From NCBI GenBank assembly GCA_947466165.1, contig CANIDW010000018.1, forward strand, positions 1 through 12,604: DNA of 12,604 bases. The letters are read 5' to 3'. The DNA is from Comamonadaceae bacterium (lineage in GTDB: Bacteria > Pseudomonadota > Gammaproteobacteria > Burkholderiales > Burkholderiaceae_C). Positions 3,666 through 12,604 of this stretch are shown piece after piece (position 1 is the stretch's first letter; each line of letters opens with the position of its first letter). The notes under the pieces are model-generated. The model saw only the letters and a list, made by a program, of their open reading frames with translations, was not told the origin of the DNA and made no database searches. Made by a program: the position numbers and the translations under genes.

Positions 3666-4109
3666 ATGCCCGGCATCCACATCACTGACATCGAAGCGGC
3701 CATCAATTACTGGCGCGAGCGCAGCCCTTCGCCGGATGGCGTCACACTGGCGCCTGAATTGCGCGCGCTGGCCGAGGTCTATGCACTGCTGGTTTTCTAC
3801 CATGAGGAAGAGGCTGACGAGGCCAGCTTTCCGGCCAAGGCCATGGCCGCCTGGCGGGTTTGGTACGACACCACGGCCGACACGCCCTGCATCGCAATTT
3901 GCTCAACCAGCCAGGGCGACGCCCTGTGCAAAGGCTGTGGCCGAAGTTTTGACGAGGTGCAGCACTGGCCGGCCATGTCGCCGGGTGAAAAGCGCGCCAG
4001 TTGGCGGCGCATCACCCTAGAGGGGAGTTCGTGGCGCTTTGGCCGTTATGCAGACCGGGCCCTGGAGAAAAAGCCCGTGGCGGCAAGCCCTGCCAACGGC
4101 TCGACTTGA
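3666..4109 (+). CDS. DUF3717-DUF1289 fusion protein with four-cysteine site
   Basis: Small soluble protein of 147 residues joining two uncharacterised domains. Residues 5-45 (ITDIEAAINYWRERSP, then LRALAEVYALLVF) match DUF3717, a short helical domain of beta-proteobacteria. Residues 72-118 match DUF1289: PCIAIC, LCKGCGR, then FDEVQHW. Cysteines C75, C79, C88 and C91 form a CX3C-X8-CX2C arrangement that probably binds zinc or an iron-sulfur centre. The tail is basic and low in complexity. No function is known for either domain. The ATG at 3666 has no Shine-Dalgarno; GCGATCTC precedes it, after a long U-rich run. Two terminator-like hairpins on the same strand lie directly upstream, so its transcription is either attenuated or starts very close to the ATG. 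It converges on purB, leaving 68 bases between stops with no strong terminator seen. Confidence 0.85.
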   Translation: MPGIHITDIEAAINYWRERSPSPDGVTLAPELRALAEVYALLVFYHEEEADEASFPAKAMAAWRVWYDTTADTPCIAICSTSQGDALCKGCGRSFDEVQHWPAMSPGEKRASWRRITLEGSSWRFGRYADRALEKKPVAASPANGST

Positions 4110-6330: not shown

Positions 6331-6816
6331 TCAGGTGTTGGCCCGACGCTTGAGCCAGCGCATCAAGCTGCCGACGGCAGGCAGCTTTTCATAAAGCTCC
6401 TCGGCCGTGTCCCAGTAGTCCCGATGAAATGCGATCAGCCCCTCGGGGCTGAGTTCCAGGTGCGAGCCGCCGCGCACGGTCTGCCAGACATCGGGGCTAA
6501 AACGCTTGAAGCGGAATACAAAATTCCAGGTTAAAAAGCACTGGGCGCCGTCCACCAGCTGCCCTGTCACTACAAAATGTGGCTTGTCGAGCGCCACAAA
6601 CATGTGACGGAAAATGCCTTGCACCCCGGTCAGGCCGCGCACTTCGTTGAAAGGGTCTTTGAAGTAGGCTTGGGCTGTGTAGAAATCGCCCATCCGGGCG
6701 ACGTCAGCGGGCTGCAGCGCTTCAAAAAAATGGGCAATTCGGGCCACCGCCTGACGCTCTGGCGACACGTCAGCGGGCAAGGAACCGGGCTCAGGCGTGG
6801 CGAAATGGCTGCTCAT
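6331..6816 (-). CDS. SnoaL-like / NTF2-fold protein, last gene of the lipid operon
   Basis: NTF2-like alpha-plus-beta-barrel protein of 161 residues, related to SnoaL-type and steroid-isomerase-like folds. The family covers ring cyclases, isomerases, hydrolases and non-catalytic binding proteins. Visible features are helix ARIAHFFEALQPADVARMGDFY (about 25-46), then AYFKDPFNEVRG with acidic D54, a central WNFVFRFKR strand, GGSHLELS, and FHRDYWDTAEELYEKLP near the end. The C-terminus is basic (MRWLKRRA) and could touch membranes. Its ATG (6816) overlaps the SDR stop as ATGA, showing translational coupling. NTF2-fold proteins are repeatedly found with DUF1365 and Cfa-like genes, so it may act on or bind the operon's lipid product. 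No enzymatic role can be assigned. Confidence 0.85.
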   Translation of the reverse strand: MSSHFATPEPGSLPADVSPERQAVARIAHFFEALQPADVARMGDFYTAQAYFKDPFNEVRGLTGVQGIFRHMFVALDKPHFVVTGQLVDGAQCFLTWNFVFRFKRFSPDVWQTVRGGSHLELSPEGLIAFHRDYWDTAEELYEKLPAVGSLMRWLKRRANT

Positions 6817-7619
6817 GGTTTTGGGCGCTCTGTGGCCGTTGCGGCATGCGGGTTTTTGACAAAGCGGCGTATCAGTGCATAAAAAGCGCTGTAAGGCAGC
6901 CAGCGCAAGAACTTCACCCCGAGGGTGAAACGCTTGGGAAAATGTATTTCAAACTCGCCTTTGCGCCAGCCGGCAAGTATTTCTGCCGCCGCCTGACTGG
7001 AGTTGATCAAGGCGGGCATCTTGAAATCGTTTTGCTCAGTCAGCGGTGTTTCCACAAAGCCAGGGTTGACCAGGCTCACGCCGATGCCGCTGGGCAGCAA
7101 GTCCATGTAAAGCGTTTCAGCCAGGTTGATCAATGCAGCTTTGGTCGGCCCGTAAGCCAGGCTTTTGGGCAAGCCGCGGTAGCCTGCCACACTGCCAACG
7201 AGGCAGATGTGACCGGCCCGGTGTTTCAGCAACTGCGGCAACACAGCGTCCAGCATGTAAAGCGCGCCCAGGTAGTTGACCTCCTGGTGCCTGATCATCT
7301 GCGGCAGGTCAAAGTGATCCGCGCGCTGAGCTTTGTAATGGCCTGCGCAGTACATGACCAGATCCAGGTCACCGGCCTGCTGCACCTTGTGCGCAGCGGC
7401 GCTGACAGCTGCCGGGTCTGTGACGTCCAGGGGCAGCGCAACAGCGCCCGGGTGCGTCTGGACAAAACGCGCTAAGGCCGCTTCATTGCGTGCCGATACA
7501 TAAACCCGTGCGCCCGCCATATGCAAGGCGTGCGCAGTCGCTTCGCCAATACCGCTGGAGGCGCCAATCAGCCAGGCAACTTTGCCCTGCCATTGAGACA
7601 GTGGGGTGTTCAGACTCAT
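6813..7619 (-). CDS. short-chain dehydrogenase/reductase (SDR)
   Basis: NAD(P)-dependent oxidoreductase of the classical SDR family, 268 residues. The cofactor motif GASSGIG is at 19-25, R44 after the second strand suggests NADPH, and LDVTD is at 64-68. YCAG at 90-93 replaces the usual NNAG. The catalytic set is N115, S143, Y156 and K160 (YGPTK). NPGFVETP (185-192) is the normal substrate-side motif. The C-terminal segment FLRWLPYSAFYALIRRF (about 237-253) is hydrophobic and basic, suggesting a membrane-associated enzyme acting on a lipid; this is inference. The start at 7619 lies 10 bases after the DUF3833 stop with no Shine-Dalgarno, so coupling is likely. Its stop overlaps the next ATG. 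It is one of two or more redox enzymes in the operon. Confidence 0.93.
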   Translation of the reverse strand: MSLNTPLSQWQGKVAWLIGASSGIGEATAHALHMAGARVYVSARNEAALARFVQTHPGAVALPLDVTDPAAVSAAAHKVQQAGDLDLVMYCAGHYKAQRADHFDLPQMIRHQEVNYLGALYMLDAVLPQLLKHRAGHICLVGSVAGYRGLPKSLAYGPTKAALINLAETLYMDLLPSGIGVSLVNPGFVETPLTEQNDFKMPALINSSQAAAEILAGWRKGEFEIHFPKRFTLGVKFLRWLPYSAFYALIRRFVKNPHAATATERPKP

Positions 7620-7629
7620 GGCGTGGGAG

Positions 7630-8187
7630 TCAGCGTTTGACGAAGGACAAGGTCACCTCGCCGAGTTGAAAGCCGAACTTGCTCATGACGGCTTTGTTGA
7701 TCATCACCTTATCGTTCATCAGGTACATCCAGTCGTCAAATTGCACTTCAAAGACCCGGCCATCAACCGGCAGTTGCAGTGTGTAGCCCCAACGAAATGC
7801 ATTGCCCTTTTCTTCGCCAGAGGCCTGACCCACCACGTCTGCGGCTGTGCCGCTGTAGCGGCCGTCCGGCTGGCGGGTGAGCGTCCAGATGCGGCGCTGA
7901 CGGCTGCCGTCGGAATAGCTGAACTCTTCGTCAAGCACGCCGACTTCTTGGCCGGGGGAGCCTTGCCAGCTGCATGTCATGACCACGGTAAAGCGTTTGA
8001 CGACACGGCCTGAGCGGTCTGTGAAAAGTCCGTATGCGTCAATGGTGCCGTTGAAGTACTGGCGCAGGTCCAGCACTGGCTTTTCAGCTGCATAGTCAGC
8101 CACCTGCGGTCCGGCGCAAGCGCTCAGGCCCAGCACGGCGGCCAGCACCAAGGAGCTAAAAAACCATCGTTTTCTCTGAGTTTTCAT
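7630..8187 (-). CDS. DUF3833 lipoprotein
   Basis: Predicted outer- or inner-membrane lipoprotein of 185 residues in the DUF3833 family, function unknown. The N-terminus has basic MKTQRKR, a hydrophobic core, and lipobox LSAC (21-24) with Cys24 as the lipidation site. Residue +2 is Ala, not Asp, which favours outer-membrane sorting. The mature part is rich in beta strands: DLRQYFNGTIDAYGLFTDRSG, the DEEFSYSDG motif, RIWTLTR, then FDDWMYLMNDKVMINKAVMSKFGF near 150-173, all typical of DUF3833. Its ATG overlaps the transporter stop as ATGA. Genes of this family tend to occur beside Cfa-like methyltransferases and DUF1365, and a lipocalin-like lipid-binding role is an attractive guess. Confidence 0.9.
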   Translation of the reverse strand: MKTQRKRWFFSSLVLAAVLGLSACAGPQVADYAAEKPVLDLRQYFNGTIDAYGLFTDRSGRVVKRFTVVMTCSWQGSPGQEVGVLDEEFSYSDGSRQRRIWTLTRQPDGRYSGTAADVVGQASGEEKGNAFRWGYTLQLPVDGRVFEVQFDDWMYLMNDKVMINKAVMSKFGFQLGEVTLSFVKR

Positions 8188-9512
8188 GAGCTACTTTCAT
8201 TTTGAGCGGGTCGTATAAGCAAAACATACAAGCAAACTGCAGCCAGCATTTTGAGCAGGCAAGGCAGCAAACAATAAGCAATCGCCAGTGCGTTGAGCGC
8301 GCCGGCATCACGCACGCCCGGAGCGTAGCCAAACAGGCTCAACAAAGGCAGTGCCAGCCCGGCGGCCAGCGCCAGGTTGAGCTTGGTGGCAAAGTTCCAC
8401 CAGCCAAAGTATCCACCGGCCGCCAGCGCAGGATGGCGGGCCTGGCCGGCATGAACCACGCCGGCCAGCATCGCACCGGGCAGTGCCAGGTCAGCGCCCA
8501 GAGCCGCACCCGACAGGGCGCAGACCAGCGCAAAGGCCGTCACATCACCAGCACCCAATTGACTGGCCCAGATGAACACAGCGATCGACAGCGCCATACC
8601 CGCCAGCCAGCTGCGCGCCAGACCGAGCCGTTTGACAGCGGCCAGCCAGAGCGGGATGGCCAGCGCAGCACATAAGAAATAGCTGCCCAGAAACAGCGGC
8701 TCTAAAGCCGGTGGCGCTTGCAGCAGGTCTTGAATGAAAAACAGCACCAATGTGGCCGGCACGGCGCTGGCAATGCCATTGAATATGAACACAGTCATCA
8801 GCCGGCGAAATTGCGCTTGCTGCCACGGCAGCCATACCGAGCCGGCGGTGTGCGCCAATACGTCCCCATTGGCCGGCCCGGCCGCGGGTCGTACGGCTTG
8901 TTGCCAGCCCAGCCAGGCCAATACCAGCGCAGCGCAAAACACGGCCGCGGTAGATGGCAAACCGACCAAGGCAGGTAACACCGAAGCGGTGACCACGCCC
9001 AGCAGTCCCAGCCCTTCACGCCAGGCGACGATGCGGCTTTGTTGCGTTTCGCTGCCACCCAGCAAAGCGCCCCAAGCCTGGTGCGCCACCGTCAGAGCAC
9101 TGTAGCCGGCATAGGTGATCATCAGCATGAGGCTGGCCCAGACAAGCAGCCCAGTCTGCGACAGTGCAGGCGGAAAAAAAAGCAATACAAAGCCAAGGGC
9201 CAACACCACAGCGGCGAGAGCACCAAAAGCCAAAACAGCGCCGGCCGATCGCGCAAACAGCCGGTCCACCAGCTTGCCGAGCGCGGGGTCGATGAAGGCG
9301 TCAAACAGCCGTGCGCCGAGCAGAACCGCCCCCAGCGTGGCCAGCGGCACGCCAAAAGCGCGGGCGTAATGGTTGGGCAAAATCACATAAAGGGGCAAGG
9401 CGGCAAAGGCCAGTGGGAAGCCCATCAAGCCATAAGCCAAACCGTTGCGCGTGCCGAAAGCGCTGCTGTTCAGCGCTGCTGCCTGAATGGGTTGGTTCTC
9501 TTCAAGGCTCAC
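8184..9512 (-). CDS. MelB/GPH-type MFS transporter
   Basis: Twelve-helix transporter of the MFS_2 / glycoside-pentoside-hexuronide:cation symporter group, 442 residues from the chosen start. The diagnostic motif is RLFDAFIDPALG (69-79). D71 and D75 match the paired aspartates of MelB (D55, D59) that bind the coupling cation. HQAWGAL near 145-150 and the R-rich loop after it (QSRIVAWREG) also fit. The start is GTG 9512, backed by GGGGAG 8 bases upstream, and it overlaps the preceding stop by 11 bases. The frame stays open to 9680, but that part lies inside the chalcone-isomerase gene and its residues look unlike protein. The stop overlaps the DUF3833 ATG. In a lipid operon the substrate may be a lipid rather than a sugar: the animal lysolipid carrier MFSD2A belongs to the same superfamily branch. 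Confidence 0.9.
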   Translation of the reverse strand: MSLEENQPIQAAALNSSAFGTRNGLAYGLMGFPLAFAALPLYVILPNHYARAFGVPLATLGAVLLGARLFDAFIDPALGKLVDRLFARSAGAVLAFGALAAVVLALGFVLLFFPPALSQTGLLVWASLMLMITYAGYSALTVAHQAWGALLGGSETQQSRIVAWREGLGLLGVVTASVLPALVGLPSTAAVFCAALVLAWLGWQQAVRPAAGPANGDVLAHTAGSVWLPWQQAQFRRLMTVFIFNGIASAVPATLVLFFIQDLLQAPPALEPLFLGSYFLCAALAIPLWLAAVKRLGLARSWLAGMALSIAVFIWASQLGAGDVTAFALVCALSGAALGADLALPGAMLAGVVHAGQARHPALAAGGYFGWWNFATKLNLALAAGLALPLLSLFGYAPGVRDAGALNALAIAYCLLPCLLKMLAAVCLYVLLIRPAQNESSS

Positions 9513-10101
9513 GCGCTGAGCTCCCCAGCAAAGACAAGCGCATGGCCGGCTCGGACGTCTGCGGCGACAGCCAGATGCCAAAAAACAAGCGCGCAAATTC
9601 TGGGTCAGCGATCTCGCCAACAGGCCGGCCGTTGAGCCAAAAGTTGGCGCTGATGCCCGGCCGGTGCAGGAACAAGACACGATCGCCAGCCTTCACATCG
9701 GGAAACACCCGCAGCATCTCAGCCGTCCATTGCTGTGCCTGCGCAGCCGACAAGTTTGCGCTGCGGCGCATTTCCTTGAGTGAGCGCTCAACGATGTCTG
9801 CCGCAGTGAAGTCCCGCAAGTAGGCCAACTCCAGCGCCAAGGGCTGGCTGGCAAAGTTGCGTGCCTTCAAGCCGGGCGGGCTCCACAGGCGTGCATCGTA
9901 AATTTTGAAGCCCCAGACGCTCAAACGGGTCTGGCCAATCAGCCTGGCGAGTGGCAGCACGTCCTGGAGTTCAGCCGGCGGCGCCTTGTCGGCTTGGCGG
10001 GCCAAGGCCTGCGGTAACAAACTGGCCAGACTCGGGGCGTGCCAGCCCAGCTGCAGCCACATTGCACAGAGCATTGCCATCAGCCAGCGGCGCTCTCCCA
10101 T
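9502..10101 (-). CDS. secreted chalcone-isomerase-like protein
   Basis: Bacterial chalcone-isomerase-fold protein of 199 residues, exported to the periplasm. The signal peptide spans residues 1-26 (MGERRWLMAML, hydrophobic core, cleavage near SLA-S). The mature domain shows the family pattern: LARLIGQTRLSVWGFKIYDARLW (about 50-72), the LALELAYLRDF strand, IVERSLKEM, FPDVKAGDRV, then WLNGRPVGEIADPEFARLFFGIWL (about 155-178). Bacterial members are not flavonoid enzymes. The fold is shared with plant fatty-acid-binding proteins, so binding an acyl chain is plausible but unproven. It starts 11 bases after the methyltransferase stop with a weak AGGA overlapping that stop. ATG codons at residues 8 and 10 are alternatives that would shorten the signal peptide. 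Its end overlaps the transporter start by 11 bases. Confidence 0.88.
   Translation of the reverse strand: MGERRWLMAMLCAMWLQLGWHAPSLASLLPQALARQADKAPPAELQDVLPLARLIGQTRLSVWGFKIYDARLWSPPGLKARNFASQPLALELAYLRDFTAADIVERSLKEMRRSANLSAAQAQQWTAEMLRVFPDVKAGDRVLFLHRPGISANFWLNGRPVGEIADPEFARLFFGIWLSPQTSEPAMRLSLLGSSAREP
9521..9526 (-). promoter_or_regulatory. Shine-Dalgarno GGGGAG fixing a GTG start
   Basis: GGGGAG stands 8 bases before GTG 9512, inside the end of the upstream gene. It decides the transporter start against the longer open frame that reaches 9680. Confidence 0.75.
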
Positions 10102-10112
10102 GGTCAGGCGTC

Positions 10113-11417
10113 CTACACCGGCTTGCGCAAGGTGAATTGCACAACGTCAGTATTGGCTTCGGCAAAAGCTGCTTCGCAGTAAGCGAGATAAAACTCCCAG
10201 ATGCGCATGAAGCGAGTGTCAAAGCCGAGCTTGAGCACTTGCGGGGCTTGGGCCAGGAAGGCATCTCGCCACAGCCGCAGCGTGTGCGCGTAATCCTGGC
10301 CGAAGGCCAGTTCATCAACCACTTCCAGGCCGGCAGCGCGGGCATGGGCCCTGAACACCATGGGCGAAGGCAAGCAACCACCGGGGAATATGTACTGTTG
10401 AATGAAGTCGGTTGACTCGATGTAGCGCTCGTAAAGATGGTCGGCAATCACGATGCTCTGAATGCAGGCGTGGCCGCCCGGCTTGAGCAAGCGCGCAATG
10501 GTGTTGAAGTAAGTCGGCCAGTATTCGCGGCCTACGGCTTCGATCATTTCGATCGAGCAGATGGCGTCAAAAGATTGATCTGCCGCGTTGTTCACGCCGA
10601 TGTCGCGGTAGTCCTGTAAACGCAAGTCGTGCGTTACCTTGGCTTTTGGCTGCTCCGCTGCCGCAGGAACACCGAGGCGTTTCAAGCGGGCCTGGGCCCA
10701 TTGCAATTGCTCGGTGCTCAGCGTCACGCCGACCAGCGAGGCGCCGAATTCGGTGGTAGCCATTTCGGCCAGCGCCCCCCAGCCGCAGCCGATCTCCAGC
10801 ACGCGACCGCCAGGCTGGACCTGCACCATGCGCAGCGCGCGCCGCACCTTGGCGTTTTGCGCTTCTTGCATGGAGGTGTCGGGCGATTCAAACATGGCCG
10901 ACGAATAATTCATGGTGCCGTCCAGCCAAAGCTCGTAAAAAGCATTGCCCAGGTCGTAGTGGGCGTGTATGTTTTTCTGGCTGTTGGCTTTGGTATTGCG
11001 ATTGAGCAAGTGCTTGAGCCGGTAAGCCAGTCGGCCCAGCCAGGTGCCGTAGATCACGTCTTCGACTTCTTTGCGGTTGAGGATCAACAGGCGCAGCAGA
11101 TCGGTCAGCTGCGACGTGCTCCAGTCGCCGGCAATGTAACTTTCTGCAAAGCCGATGTCGCCAGAGCGCAGGGCTGCACCGCACACCTTCCAGTTGTGCA
11201 GGTACAAGCTGGCCATGGGCGCACCGCCCGAGCCAAAGCGCTGCATGCCACCGCCGGGCAGTTGCAGCGTGAGCGTGCCGTGCTTCAGGCGGGACAGCAG
11301 TTTCATGGCGCTGCGCGCAGCGGCCGGAGCGTCGGCGGGCAGCGGCTGCGACTTGCCGATGGGCCCGGGTGACTCGGCGCAGTTGTTGGTGTCGGCGGAT
11401 GAGGGCGTTGAGTTCAT
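10113..11417 (-). CDS. cyclopropane-fatty-acid-synthase-like SAM methyltransferase
   Basis: SAM-dependent enzyme of the Cfa/mycolic-acid-methyltransferase family (COG2230), 434 residues, acting on double bonds of acyl chains in membrane phospholipids. Motifs: HYDLGNAFYELWLD (153-166), NYSSAMFE (170-177), SAM-binding VLEIGCGWG (206-214), LQDYRD (267-272), IEMIEAVGREYW (289-300), QYIFPGGCLPS (341-351) and FGQDYAHTL (372-380). Compared with my recollection of E. coli Cfa, E239 and Y317 are kept (E293, Y376), but bicarbonate ligands C139 and H266 are replaced by S173 and Q320. The product may thus be a methylated acyl chain rather than a cyclopropane. In Rhodobacter a related enzyme (UfaM) starts furan fatty acid synthesis. 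The ATG at 11417 overlaps the DUF1365 stop as ATGA; an upstream ATG at 11495 would lie inside DUF1365 and is less likely. Confidence 0.93.
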   Translation of the reverse strand: MNSTPSSADTNNCAESPGPIGKSQPLPADAPAAARSAMKLLSRLKHGTLTLQLPGGGMQRFGSGGAPMASLYLHNWKVCGAALRSGDIGFAESYIAGDWSTSQLTDLLRLLILNRKEVEDVIYGTWLGRLAYRLKHLLNRNTKANSQKNIHAHYDLGNAFYELWLDGTMNYSSAMFESPDTSMQEAQNAKVRRALRMVQVQPGGRVLEIGCGWGALAEMATTEFGASLVGVTLSTEQLQWAQARLKRLGVPAAAEQPKAKVTHDLRLQDYRDIGVNNAADQSFDAICSIEMIEAVGREYWPTYFNTIARLLKPGGHACIQSIVIADHLYERYIESTDFIQQYIFPGGCLPSPMVFRAHARAAGLEVVDELAFGQDYAHTLRLWRDAFLAQAPQVLKLGFDTRFMRIWEFYLAYCEAAFAEANTDVVQFTLRKPV

Positions 11418-12196
11418 CGGGTCACAAAGAGAGTTGGAGGCTGGGGTTTGGAGATGAAAGGCACGTGCTTTCGCCAGAGCTTGAAGGCTTGCCAATGGAT
11501 GCGGGCCAGCACACCGAAGGTCATGGCCGGATAGCCCCAGAAGGCTTTGCGCAGACTGGCTGCGTTGATGGTTTGCAGGGCGCCGGCCACGCTGGTTTGC
11601 AGCAGGGGTCCGGTGGCGTCGTCATGGTCGATGCGGGCCACGGTTTTTTCAATGTTGTCTCGCCGGGCGCGCATGAAACGAAAGCGGTAACTGCCTTCGA
11701 TACGGCAAAAGGGCGAGACGTGGAACACTTTGTCAGCGCGCAGTTCGTGGCCGTAACGCGGCGCGTCGAGCAAGTAGCAGTGGCGCTCGCCAAAGGTGTT
11801 GTTCACCTCAACCACGATGGCCCGCAGCGTCCCGTCTGCGCGGTGGCAGTACCAAAAACTCACGGGCTTGAAGGTGTAACCCAGCACGCGCGGATAGGTG
11901 TGCAGCCAGACTTCGCCTTGCGCATCGGCAATGCCCTGGGCCAGCAAGAGCGCGTCAAGCCAGGCCAGGCAATCGCTGCCGCCGTCACCGTGGTCGCTGT
12001 CATGAAAGCTCAAGAGCCCACGGCGGTTGCGTGCCAGCGCAGAGCTGCCGCCTGTTTGCATGGTACGCAGCGGCAGCATTAAAAAATAAGTCGGGTAACT
12101 GAAAGCGTGGTGCGCAGGCTTGAGCCGCGTGTGGCGCACTTCGCCAAAGCCGATCAGGGCCTGGACTGAAGCGACTGGCGTGCTTGCTGCGTTCAT
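11414..12196 (-). CDS. DUF1365 protein
   Basis: Uncharacterised cytoplasmic or membrane-associated protein of the DUF1365 family (COG3496), 260 residues. Family motifs are visible in order: GEVRHTRLKPAHHAFSYP near the start, LGYTFKPVSFWYCHRADG in the middle, EVNNTFGERHCYLL, then KVFHVSPFCRIEGSYRFRF. Conserved His, Arg and aromatic residues suggest an enzyme or a metal/lipid-binding role, but no activity is established. The ATG at 12196 overlaps the stop of the upstream FAD gene as ATGA, matching the pattern of this operon. ATG 12208, four codons earlier, is possible. DUF1365 nearly always sits between the FAD oxidoreductase and the Cfa-like gene, as it does here, which ties it to the same lipid modification. 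Confidence 0.92.
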   Translation of the reverse strand: MNAASTPVASVQALIGFGEVRHTRLKPAHHAFSYPTYFLMLPLRTMQTGGSSALARNRRGLLSFHDSDHGDGGSDCLAWLDALLLAQGIADAQGEVWLHTYPRVLGYTFKPVSFWYCHRADGTLRAIVVEVNNTFGERHCYLLDAPRYGHELRADKVFHVSPFCRIEGSYRFRFMRARRDNIEKTVARIDHDDATGPLLQTSVAGALQTINAASLRKAFWGYPAMTFGVLARIHWQAFKLWRKHVPFISKPQPPTLFVTR

Positions 12197-12604
12197 GCCT
12201 TGCGCCATTCGGTGTTGGCCAGTAAAGGCGGTGGCGCCACAAAAGCGGGTTCATTGAGGTCCACAATGAGTTCAGCCACCAGCAGGCCGGACTTCAGACC
12301 GTCTTCATGAAATCCGTAGCCCGTCCAGGCACCGCAAAAATAAGTGTGCTGCTGGCCTTGCAAGGCCGGCAGGTCTTTTTGGGCGCGGATGGCGGCGCCG
12401 TCAAAAACGGGGTGTGCGTAATCAAAGCTGCCCAGTATTTTTTCAGCAGCGATGGGTGTGACCGGGTTCAAGGAAACCACCACCGGTTGTTGAAAGGGCA
12501 ACGGTTGCAGCAAATTCAGCAGGTAATGCAGACAAACCTGCGTGCACTCGCGACCGCTGTCGCTTGCGCGTTCGTAGTTCCAGGCGGCCCAGGCCAGGGG
12601 GCGC
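12193..12604 (-). CDS. FAD-dependent oxidoreductase (amine-oxidase fold), 5' part outside the window
   Basis: Only the C-terminal 136 residues are present; the frame is open to the window edge. The family is the predicted NAD/FAD-binding protein group COG2907, of amine-oxidase/desaturase fold. WAAWNYER near the visible beginning (about residues 6-13) is a hallmark of the family. CGAWTGYGFHEDGLKSG near the C-terminus is the segment closing over the FAD. Between them lie NPVTPI and a SFDYAHPVF segment typical of the group. Its dinucleotide-binding N-terminus (GxGxxG) would lie beyond 12604. Its stop overlaps the DUF1365 ATG. A flavin enzyme next to a Cfa-like methylase fits oxidation or desaturation of the methylated acyl chain, which is inference. 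Confidence 0.92.
   Translation of the reverse strand, partial: RPLAWAAWNYERASDSGRECTQVCLHYLLNLLQPLPFQQPVVVSLNPVTPIAAEKILGSFDYAHPVFDGAAIRAQKDLPALQGQQHTYFCGAWTGYGFHEDGLKSGLLVAELIVDLNEPAFVAPPPLLANTEWRKA

Follow-up and report, generated by a model that had tools for sequence, protein, structure and literature searches.

An eight-gene operon of a Comamonadaceae bacterium as a probable fuller form of the furan fatty acid operon

Contig CANIDW010000018.1 of a Comamonadaceae bacterium (assembly GCA_947466165.1) was analysed over its full length of 12,604 nucleotides, referred to here as the window, with a focus on eight consecutive minus-strand genes. These were, in order, ufaD, ufaO, ufaM, chi, mfs and the genes of a DUF3833 protein, a short-chain dehydrogenase/reductase (SDR) and an NTF2-like protein. 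The eight genes probably form a furan fatty acid (ufa) operon that has more members than the one studied so far and combines synthesis with carriage and clean-up. The two parts of this reading differed in strength. Synthesis of furan fatty acids by the operon was very likely. That the other genes serve to carry and clean up furan or oxidised chains was a tentative proposal, drawn from a predicted fold, transporter residues, export signals and gene company. The exact eight-gene order and the full set free of ChrR are new. The pathway itself is already known, and the variant is fuller and differently regulated. The assembly comprised 1.98 Mb in 343 contigs and was 74% complete, and Polaromonas was the commonest genus among the named close relatives of the window.

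The eight genes, their order and their junctions had been proposed in an initial annotation, and they were confirmed from the open reading frames; seven Pfam families were as claimed (Table 1). ATGA overlaps were found at 12193, 11414, 8184 and 6813. The chi and mfs genes overlapped by 11 bases, and gaps of 11 and 10 bases separated ufaM from chi and the DUF3833 gene from the SDR gene. The start of ufaO was taken as the ATG at 12196; with an alternative in-frame start, the ATG at 12208, the overlap would be 16 bases. The ufaD gene was truncated by the window end, and its C-terminal 136 residues alone had no Pfam match. Contig C37 of the same assembly ends in a stretch identical to the window's final 149 bases, and the join of the two contigs was based solely on this identity. 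The C37 part of ufaD matched Amino_oxidase (1.4e-17) and NAD_binding_8, which bore out the assignment as an FAD oxidoreductase. The complete UfaD had 462 amino acids, with its start at L003:8350 on C37. The identical eight-gene order was found in 3 of the 66 other ufaO loci (G019, G171 and G194), all from the window's taxonomic family. Because the same order recurred in these genomes, the arrangement was considered more than chance.

Table 1. Genes of the operon and of the joined contig C37. Positions are those of the window unless prefixed with L003 (contig C37).
Feature	Position	Strand	Evidence or remark
ufaD, C-terminal part of FAD-dependent (amine-oxidase-like) fatty acyl desaturase	12193..12604	-	Contig overlap, Pfam, identity; N-terminal part on contig C37 (L003:8350-9475)
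ufaO, DUF1365, O2-dependent furan-forming enzyme by orthology	11414..12196	-	PF07103 3.7e-81; directly downstream of ufaD
ufaM, Cfa-like SAM-dependent fatty acyl methyltransferase (putative)	10113..11417	-	CMAS 2.1e-81; S139, E236, Q266 (E. coli Cfa numbering)
chi, Chalcone_3 (chalcone-isomerase-like) protein	9502..10101	-	PF16036 1.1e-12
mfs, MFS_2 transporter	8184..9512	-	PF13347 1.8e-52; 12 hydrophobic segments
DUF3833 lipoprotein (by pattern)	7630..8187	-	PF12915 4.4e-67; lipobox LSAC by pattern
SDR, short-chain dehydrogenase/reductase, RSP1087 counterpart	6813..7619	-	PF00106 (adh_short) 1.7e-39
NTF2/SnoaL-like protein	6331..6816	-	SnoaL_2 9.6e-13
Glutathione peroxidase (GPx)	L003:7644-8240	+	Contig C37, 109 bases upstream of ufaD; signal-like N-terminus
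Divergent protein	L003:6578-7441	-	Contig C37; weak partial FA_desaturase_2 match; kept near same place in G019

The assignment of the first three genes followed from enzymes that have been studied. According to the available part of PMC7380195, UfaM, UfaD and UfaO (DUF1365) convert the cis-vaccenoyl chains of phospholipids to the furan acid 9M5-FuFA with oxygen from O2, and the three genes suffice for the furan fatty acid in Rhodobacter sphaeroides. By orthology with the enzymes demonstrated in R. sphaeroides and R. palustris, the window UfaM would add a methyl group to the cis-vaccenoyl chain of a membrane phospholipid, UfaD would desaturate the methylated chain, and UfaO would close the furan ring using O2. 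Identity to the proteins at matching places in Gemmobacter and Rhodobacter ruber was 43-45% for UfaM, 41% for UfaD and 38-39% for UfaO. The R. ruber values alone (UfaD 41%, UfaO 39%, UfaM 43%) supported the furan fatty acid link and the three-gene core that had been suggested at the outset. In Gemmobacter and R. ruber, a photolyase gene, recognised by eye in the translated sequence, adjoined ufaM. The R. sphaeroides numbering likewise puts RSP2144 next to a photolyase, RSP2143 (table in PMC5507510, seen in excerpt). No solved relative of UfaO was found by single-sequence or profile search. A 75% identical DUF1365 protein (P0345) came from the eukaryote data set Opistho-1 and is likely bacterial carry-over.

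The methyltransferase could also be read as a cyclopropane synthase of the usual kind, in which case the operon would make cyclopropane or other methyl-branched acids, not furans. The protein carried a CMAS domain, its closest solved relatives were cyclopropane synthases, and its E236 was common to other Cfa-like rows of the alignment to E. coli Cfa. A UfaM of Halomonas, encoded by a gene consecutive with ufaD and ufaO, yielded 11-methyl-octadec-12-enoate in E. coli, and cyclic fatty acids were likewise detected in the strain overexpressing this ufaM (excerpts of PMC12089945). However, Cys139 and His266 of E. coli Cfa were replaced by Ser and Gln in the window protein. These two residues presumably make up the bicarbonate site of E. 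coli Cfa. In addition, the NCBIfam Cfa equivalog cut-offs were missed by far (257.5 against 600 bits and 240 against 400 bits), and ufaD and ufaO were coupled to the methyltransferase gene. A cyclopropane operon was judged very unlikely.

Q266 was present in all 55 methyltransferases encoded directly downstream of ufaO, window included, and also in the photolyase-linked UfaM orthologues of Gemmobacter and R. ruber, as read from translations. H266 was retained in 10 of the 13 other Cfa-like rows. At position 139, 43 of the 55 ufaO-linked rows had Ser and 10 had Ala, with one row each for Gly and Cys. E236 was tried as a UfaM signature and rejected, as it was found in 55/55 ufaO-linked rows and also in 12/13 of the others. 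Only Q266 divided the ufaO-linked rows from most others. Q266 might determine the product of UfaM and is a candidate residue that may distinguish UfaM from cyclopropane synthase.

The association of the other genes with the core was surveyed in 97 stretches, 66 around DUF1365 and 31 around DUF3833; G122 was excluded for its partial DUF1365 match. The window proteins and their matches served to build the profiles, so distant SDR, NTF2, MFS and chi genes may be missed. DUF3833 was found in 49 genomes of the phylum sample (199 genomes) and DUF1365 in 68, with both in 46. In the sample of 150 genomes from the window's taxonomic family, DUF3833 was found in 90, DUF1365 in 118 and ChrR in 16. All 90 DUF3833 genomes of this family sample had DUF1365, in 87 cases within 8 kb. 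The Fisher values for co-occurrence ignore shared descent. Co-occurrence of the gene set had been named beforehand as a point on which the operon reading could fail, and it held. With the window's own locus set aside, 66 ufaO loci were read over up to 20 kb, and the genes found within 8 kb were ufaD (66), ufaM (59), sdr (47), chrR (32), ntf2 (30), DUF3833 (22), chi (16) and mfs (13). The SDR gene adjoined ntf2 in 28 of the 30 loci that had ntf2, and a chi gene lay upstream on the same strand of 22 of 56 DUF3833 genes. Chalcone_3 as a whole was present in 63 of the 199 genomes independently of the pathway, and the copies beside DUF3833 matched the model weakly.

Several gene orders were distinguished. 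Many loci of the window's class ran ntf2-sdr-ufaD-ufaO-ufaM, often followed by DUF2878 and in some then by chi-DUF3833. Of 23 DUF2878 matches, 19 were just downstream of ufaO or ufaM, and no match shared a locus with mfs. Across the 66 loci, DUF2878 (19 loci) and mfs (13 loci) never occurred together, with a Fisher p of 0.013 uncorrected for kinship. DUF2878 occupied the place of mfs downstream of ufaM, for example at L135:11639-12121 (+) and in 18 other loci. A first DUF2878 profile, which gave 43 loci and matches in the window, was false and had drifted onto shadow reading frames of ufaM. The final count was made on frames that did not overlap assigned genes, and the chi-DUF3833 and ntf2-SDR counts were independent of this profile. 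A further order, chrR with ufaD-ufaO-mfs-DUF3833-sdr, was found in 54 of 80 loci, the best 80 of at least 587 confirmed candidates. The UfaO alignment used to select these 80 was headed by a protein of f46, our label for operons of Rhodobacteraceae type, and the loci were hence all alike; the Rhodobacteraceae identity of f46 was inferred from the 80 named loci. RSP_1089-1087 have been reported, in the available part of PMC3818230, as restricted to Rhodobacteraceae. In the present survey, the same families occurred with ufaD-ufaO outside Rhodobacteraceae. The survey turns the unknown operon members into named, testable parts.

In a tree of 67 UfaO proteins, the window, G019, G171 and G194 joined G142, G175 and G078, and then the f46 operons, with support of 96/90. 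The protein of G190, a genome of the same family with ChrR and without DUF3833, was placed in a different clade. The family therefore seems to contain two separate ufa systems.

The initial annotation had counted at least four members without known chemistry. For five members, no known chemistry was found. Furan acids are destroyed by singlet oxygen (PMC6852236, seen in excerpt), so a furan chain can protect the membrane. The furan lipid and the products of its oxidation would be dealt with by the remaining five genes and the upstream GPx gene. Transport of a freed fatty acid or (lyso)lipid through the inner membrane would be the task of the MFSD2A-like transporter, coupled to a cation. On the periplasmic side, the acyl chain would be bound by the DUF3833 barrel, anchored in the membrane, and by the secreted chalcone-isomerase-like protein. 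Reactive carbonyls from ring opening would be reduced by the SDR together with its NTF2-like partner. A more specific version was considered, namely self-contained, ChrR-independent making and moving of furan phospholipid. Here the MFSD2A-like transporter, the chi carrier and the calycin barrel would form a periplasmic relay, and UfaO would be a barrel oxygenase, possibly heme-binding like nitrobindin. We regarded this version as doubtful.

MFSD2A was the best PDB match of the window transporter by sequence and by profile, and MelB was nearly as close by profile. MFSD2A is an MFS_2-related, sodium-dependent lysophosphatidylcholine symporter; it is an animal protein, and the likeness was at the level of sequence only. 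When eight operon transporters were aligned to E. coli MelB, Asp19 and Asp124 were replaced in all eight, by A/S and T/A/M, respectively. Asp55, Asp59 and Lys377 were kept in all eight. We take the first two residues to be the sugar site of MelB and the other three to serve cation coupling. The designation as a MelB-type transporter was right for the family but misleading for the function, since the sugar residues were gone. The window transporter might move a (lyso)lipid.

The predicted model of the DUF3833 protein (pLDDT 90.8) was a closed calycin-type barrel with fold matches and with a strand number within the range of 8-10. The protein is thus predicted to be a lipid-binding-like barrel of the calycin type, and the lipobox pattern suggested a lipoprotein. 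Lipobox calls came from a simple pattern applied to frames whose starts were not fixed, and at least one FSC variant (G184) was scored as none. Second, unlinked DUF3833 genes bearing a lipobox were observed in G115, G197, G083, G099 and G191 (L193-L197), where the operon copies had no lipobox. The N-terminus of the chi protein resembled a signal peptide by eye, and a hydropathy test gave no segment above the threshold; the protein is probably periplasmic. No solved relative of note was found for the Chalcone_3 and NTF2-like proteins. The SDR was 37% identical to the R. ruber protein at the same operon place. No publication describing chi, or a transport role, in such an operon was found in a search limited mostly to non-subscription papers.

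The five extra genes might have separate envelope functions, such as a general lipid carrier or unrelated export, and merely share a stress operon. Deleting RSP1087, RSP1088 or RSP1089 singly (the SDR, DUF3833 and MFS genes, judged by order and length) left the fatty acids without detectable change (available part of PMC7380195). The suggestion of a complete route, if it requires all eight genes for synthesis, was not supported, as R. sphaeroides needs three. The initial annotation had also named an unchanged lipid profile under all stresses as evidence against its proposal. An unchanged profile was reported for these three counterparts, but in a chrR-deletion background only and not under all stresses. 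Furthermore, the chi-DUF3833 pair was located away from ufaO in G167, G142, G175, G007, G015 and G192, DUF3833 stood alone in others, and the second, unlinked lipoprotein copies of DUF3833 occurred in f46 genomes. In contrast, DUF3833 occurred almost only with DUF1365 even when unlinked, in 46/49 genomes of the phylum sample and 90/90 of the family sample, uncorrected for kinship. Separate functions were considered possible, if on the unlikely side, and carriage and clean-up of the furan lipid was kept as the working proposal.

The regulation proposed for the operon was not supported. The initial annotation had looked to rpoE/chrR-type genes and an extracytoplasmic function (ECF) promoter upstream. 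No such gene was among the C37 frames, and no ECF11 promoter (TGATC-N17-CGTA) was found between the divergent gene and ufaD (L003:7441-8350, plus strand). The sole ECF11-like site with two or fewer mismatches in this interval was at 8158, inside the GPx gene. The whole of C37 had 23 ECF11-like sites against 13.0 ± 3.5 in shuffles; one of the 23, at 1946, was a perfect site within a gene some 6 kb distant. We take this excess as unrelated to the operon. No ChrR over the cut-off or at E 1e-20 was detected in the 74%-complete assembly, and three partial matches below the cut-off had a best E of 2.5e-7. Scans for sigma-70 promoters were near shuffle level, with 1 site on C37 (7558-7585, before GPx) against 0.5 and 1 in the window part against 1.2. 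The same was true of terminators (2 against 1.6 on C37 and 11 against 8.6 in the window part, some on the operon strand). At this level, the scans indicated neither a promoter nor an inner break.

The extra genes could be a signalling arm that converts oxidation of the furan lipid into RpoE-ChrR activation. Their position beside chrR in the 54 Rhodobacteraceae-type loci described above fitted this idea, as did the report that turnover of ChrR by singlet oxygen needs furan lipid synthesis (PMC6852236, seen in excerpt). However, at a ChrR threshold of E 1e-20 in the family sample, DUF3833 and ChrR occurred together in 0 of the 150 genomes and were mutually exclusive. All 90 DUF3833 genomes had no ChrR, and 15 of the 16 ChrR genomes had DUF1365 (14 within 10 kb) without DUF3833. 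A signalling arm was considered very unlikely. G397 was the only one of the 16 without DUF1365. In 13 of the 150 genomes, DUF1365 was present without ChrR and without DUF3833. In the phylum sample, ChrR was over the cut-off in 46 of 199 genomes, 43 of them with DUF1365. The best explanation was that the operon in the window's family runs without the RpoE-ChrR singlet-oxygen switch. The full set without ChrR in this family makes the making and handling of the lipid separable from the signalling role for study.

GPx was found upstream of ufaD also in G194, where it touched ufaD, and in G019, where a short unassigned frame separated the two. Since GPx precedes ufaD in the window's own locus and in these two, the unit may comprise nine genes. 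G019 was otherwise syntenic with the window, including the divergent FA_desaturase_2-like gene, GPx, and downstream frames like the window's adenylosuccinate lyase and TerC. A MerR and B12-binding regulator of the LitR/CarH type was located beside GPx in G019 (L119:4831-5835, minus strand). A relative of this regulator at E 1e-20 was found in 5 of 36 other genomes of the same genus and was not found in the window's incomplete assembly. No LitR box (TGTACA-N12-TGTACA) was found upstream of ufaD at three or fewer mismatches. Elsewhere in the window, DUF3717 and DUF1289 were both on one small protein (3666-4109, plus strand).

Finally, the operon was compared with known systems. The Pseudomonas LitR/LOV phrB-ufaM region (PMC9758184) has an SDR, an FAD enzyme and UfaM in one light-induced region, as in the window. 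It differed in that no LitR relative or upstream LitR box was detected for the window, while the syntenic G019 locus has such a regulator. The Aeromonas salmonicida NTF2-SDR-FAD-DUF1365-cfa-DUF2878 cluster (PMC10012899) keeps NTF2, SDR, ufaD, ufaO and ufaM together as in the window. However, its gene order differs, and its DUF2878 gene sits where the window has mfs. In excerpts of PMC4336711, the RpoE2-ChrR regulon of Shewanella oneidensis has one stress sigma factor for both a periplasmic GPx and the operon SO_3386-SO_3374, for which ybgA, phrB and cfa are named. It differs in having an ECF promoter and a photolyase in the operon, and its GPx is in a separate operon with hemH2.

The closest likeness was to RSP1091-1087 and RSP2144 of R. 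sphaeroides, which share ufaD-ufaO followed by MFS, DUF3833 and SDR genes in that order. The start codons of the R. ruber DUF3833 and SDR genes gave 186 and 245 codons, which are the published lengths of RSP1088 and RSP1087. RSP_1089 has been described as a GPH-family symporter and RSP_1087 as an SDR, and RSP_1087-1091 were induced by singlet oxygen (available part of PMC7074977). RSP_1087 and RSP_1088 belong to the eight-gene core RpoE-ChrR regulon, and the Pseudomonas syringae counterpart of RSP_1088 was called a lipoprotein (available part of PMC5507510). Three of the five extra families thus belong to a known operon, and much of the window operon is a known regulon. In contrast to R. sphaeroides, the window has ufaM inside the operon together with chi and the NTF2-like gene, its DUF3833 protein is a lipoprotein by pattern, and rpoE-chrR is not adjacent.

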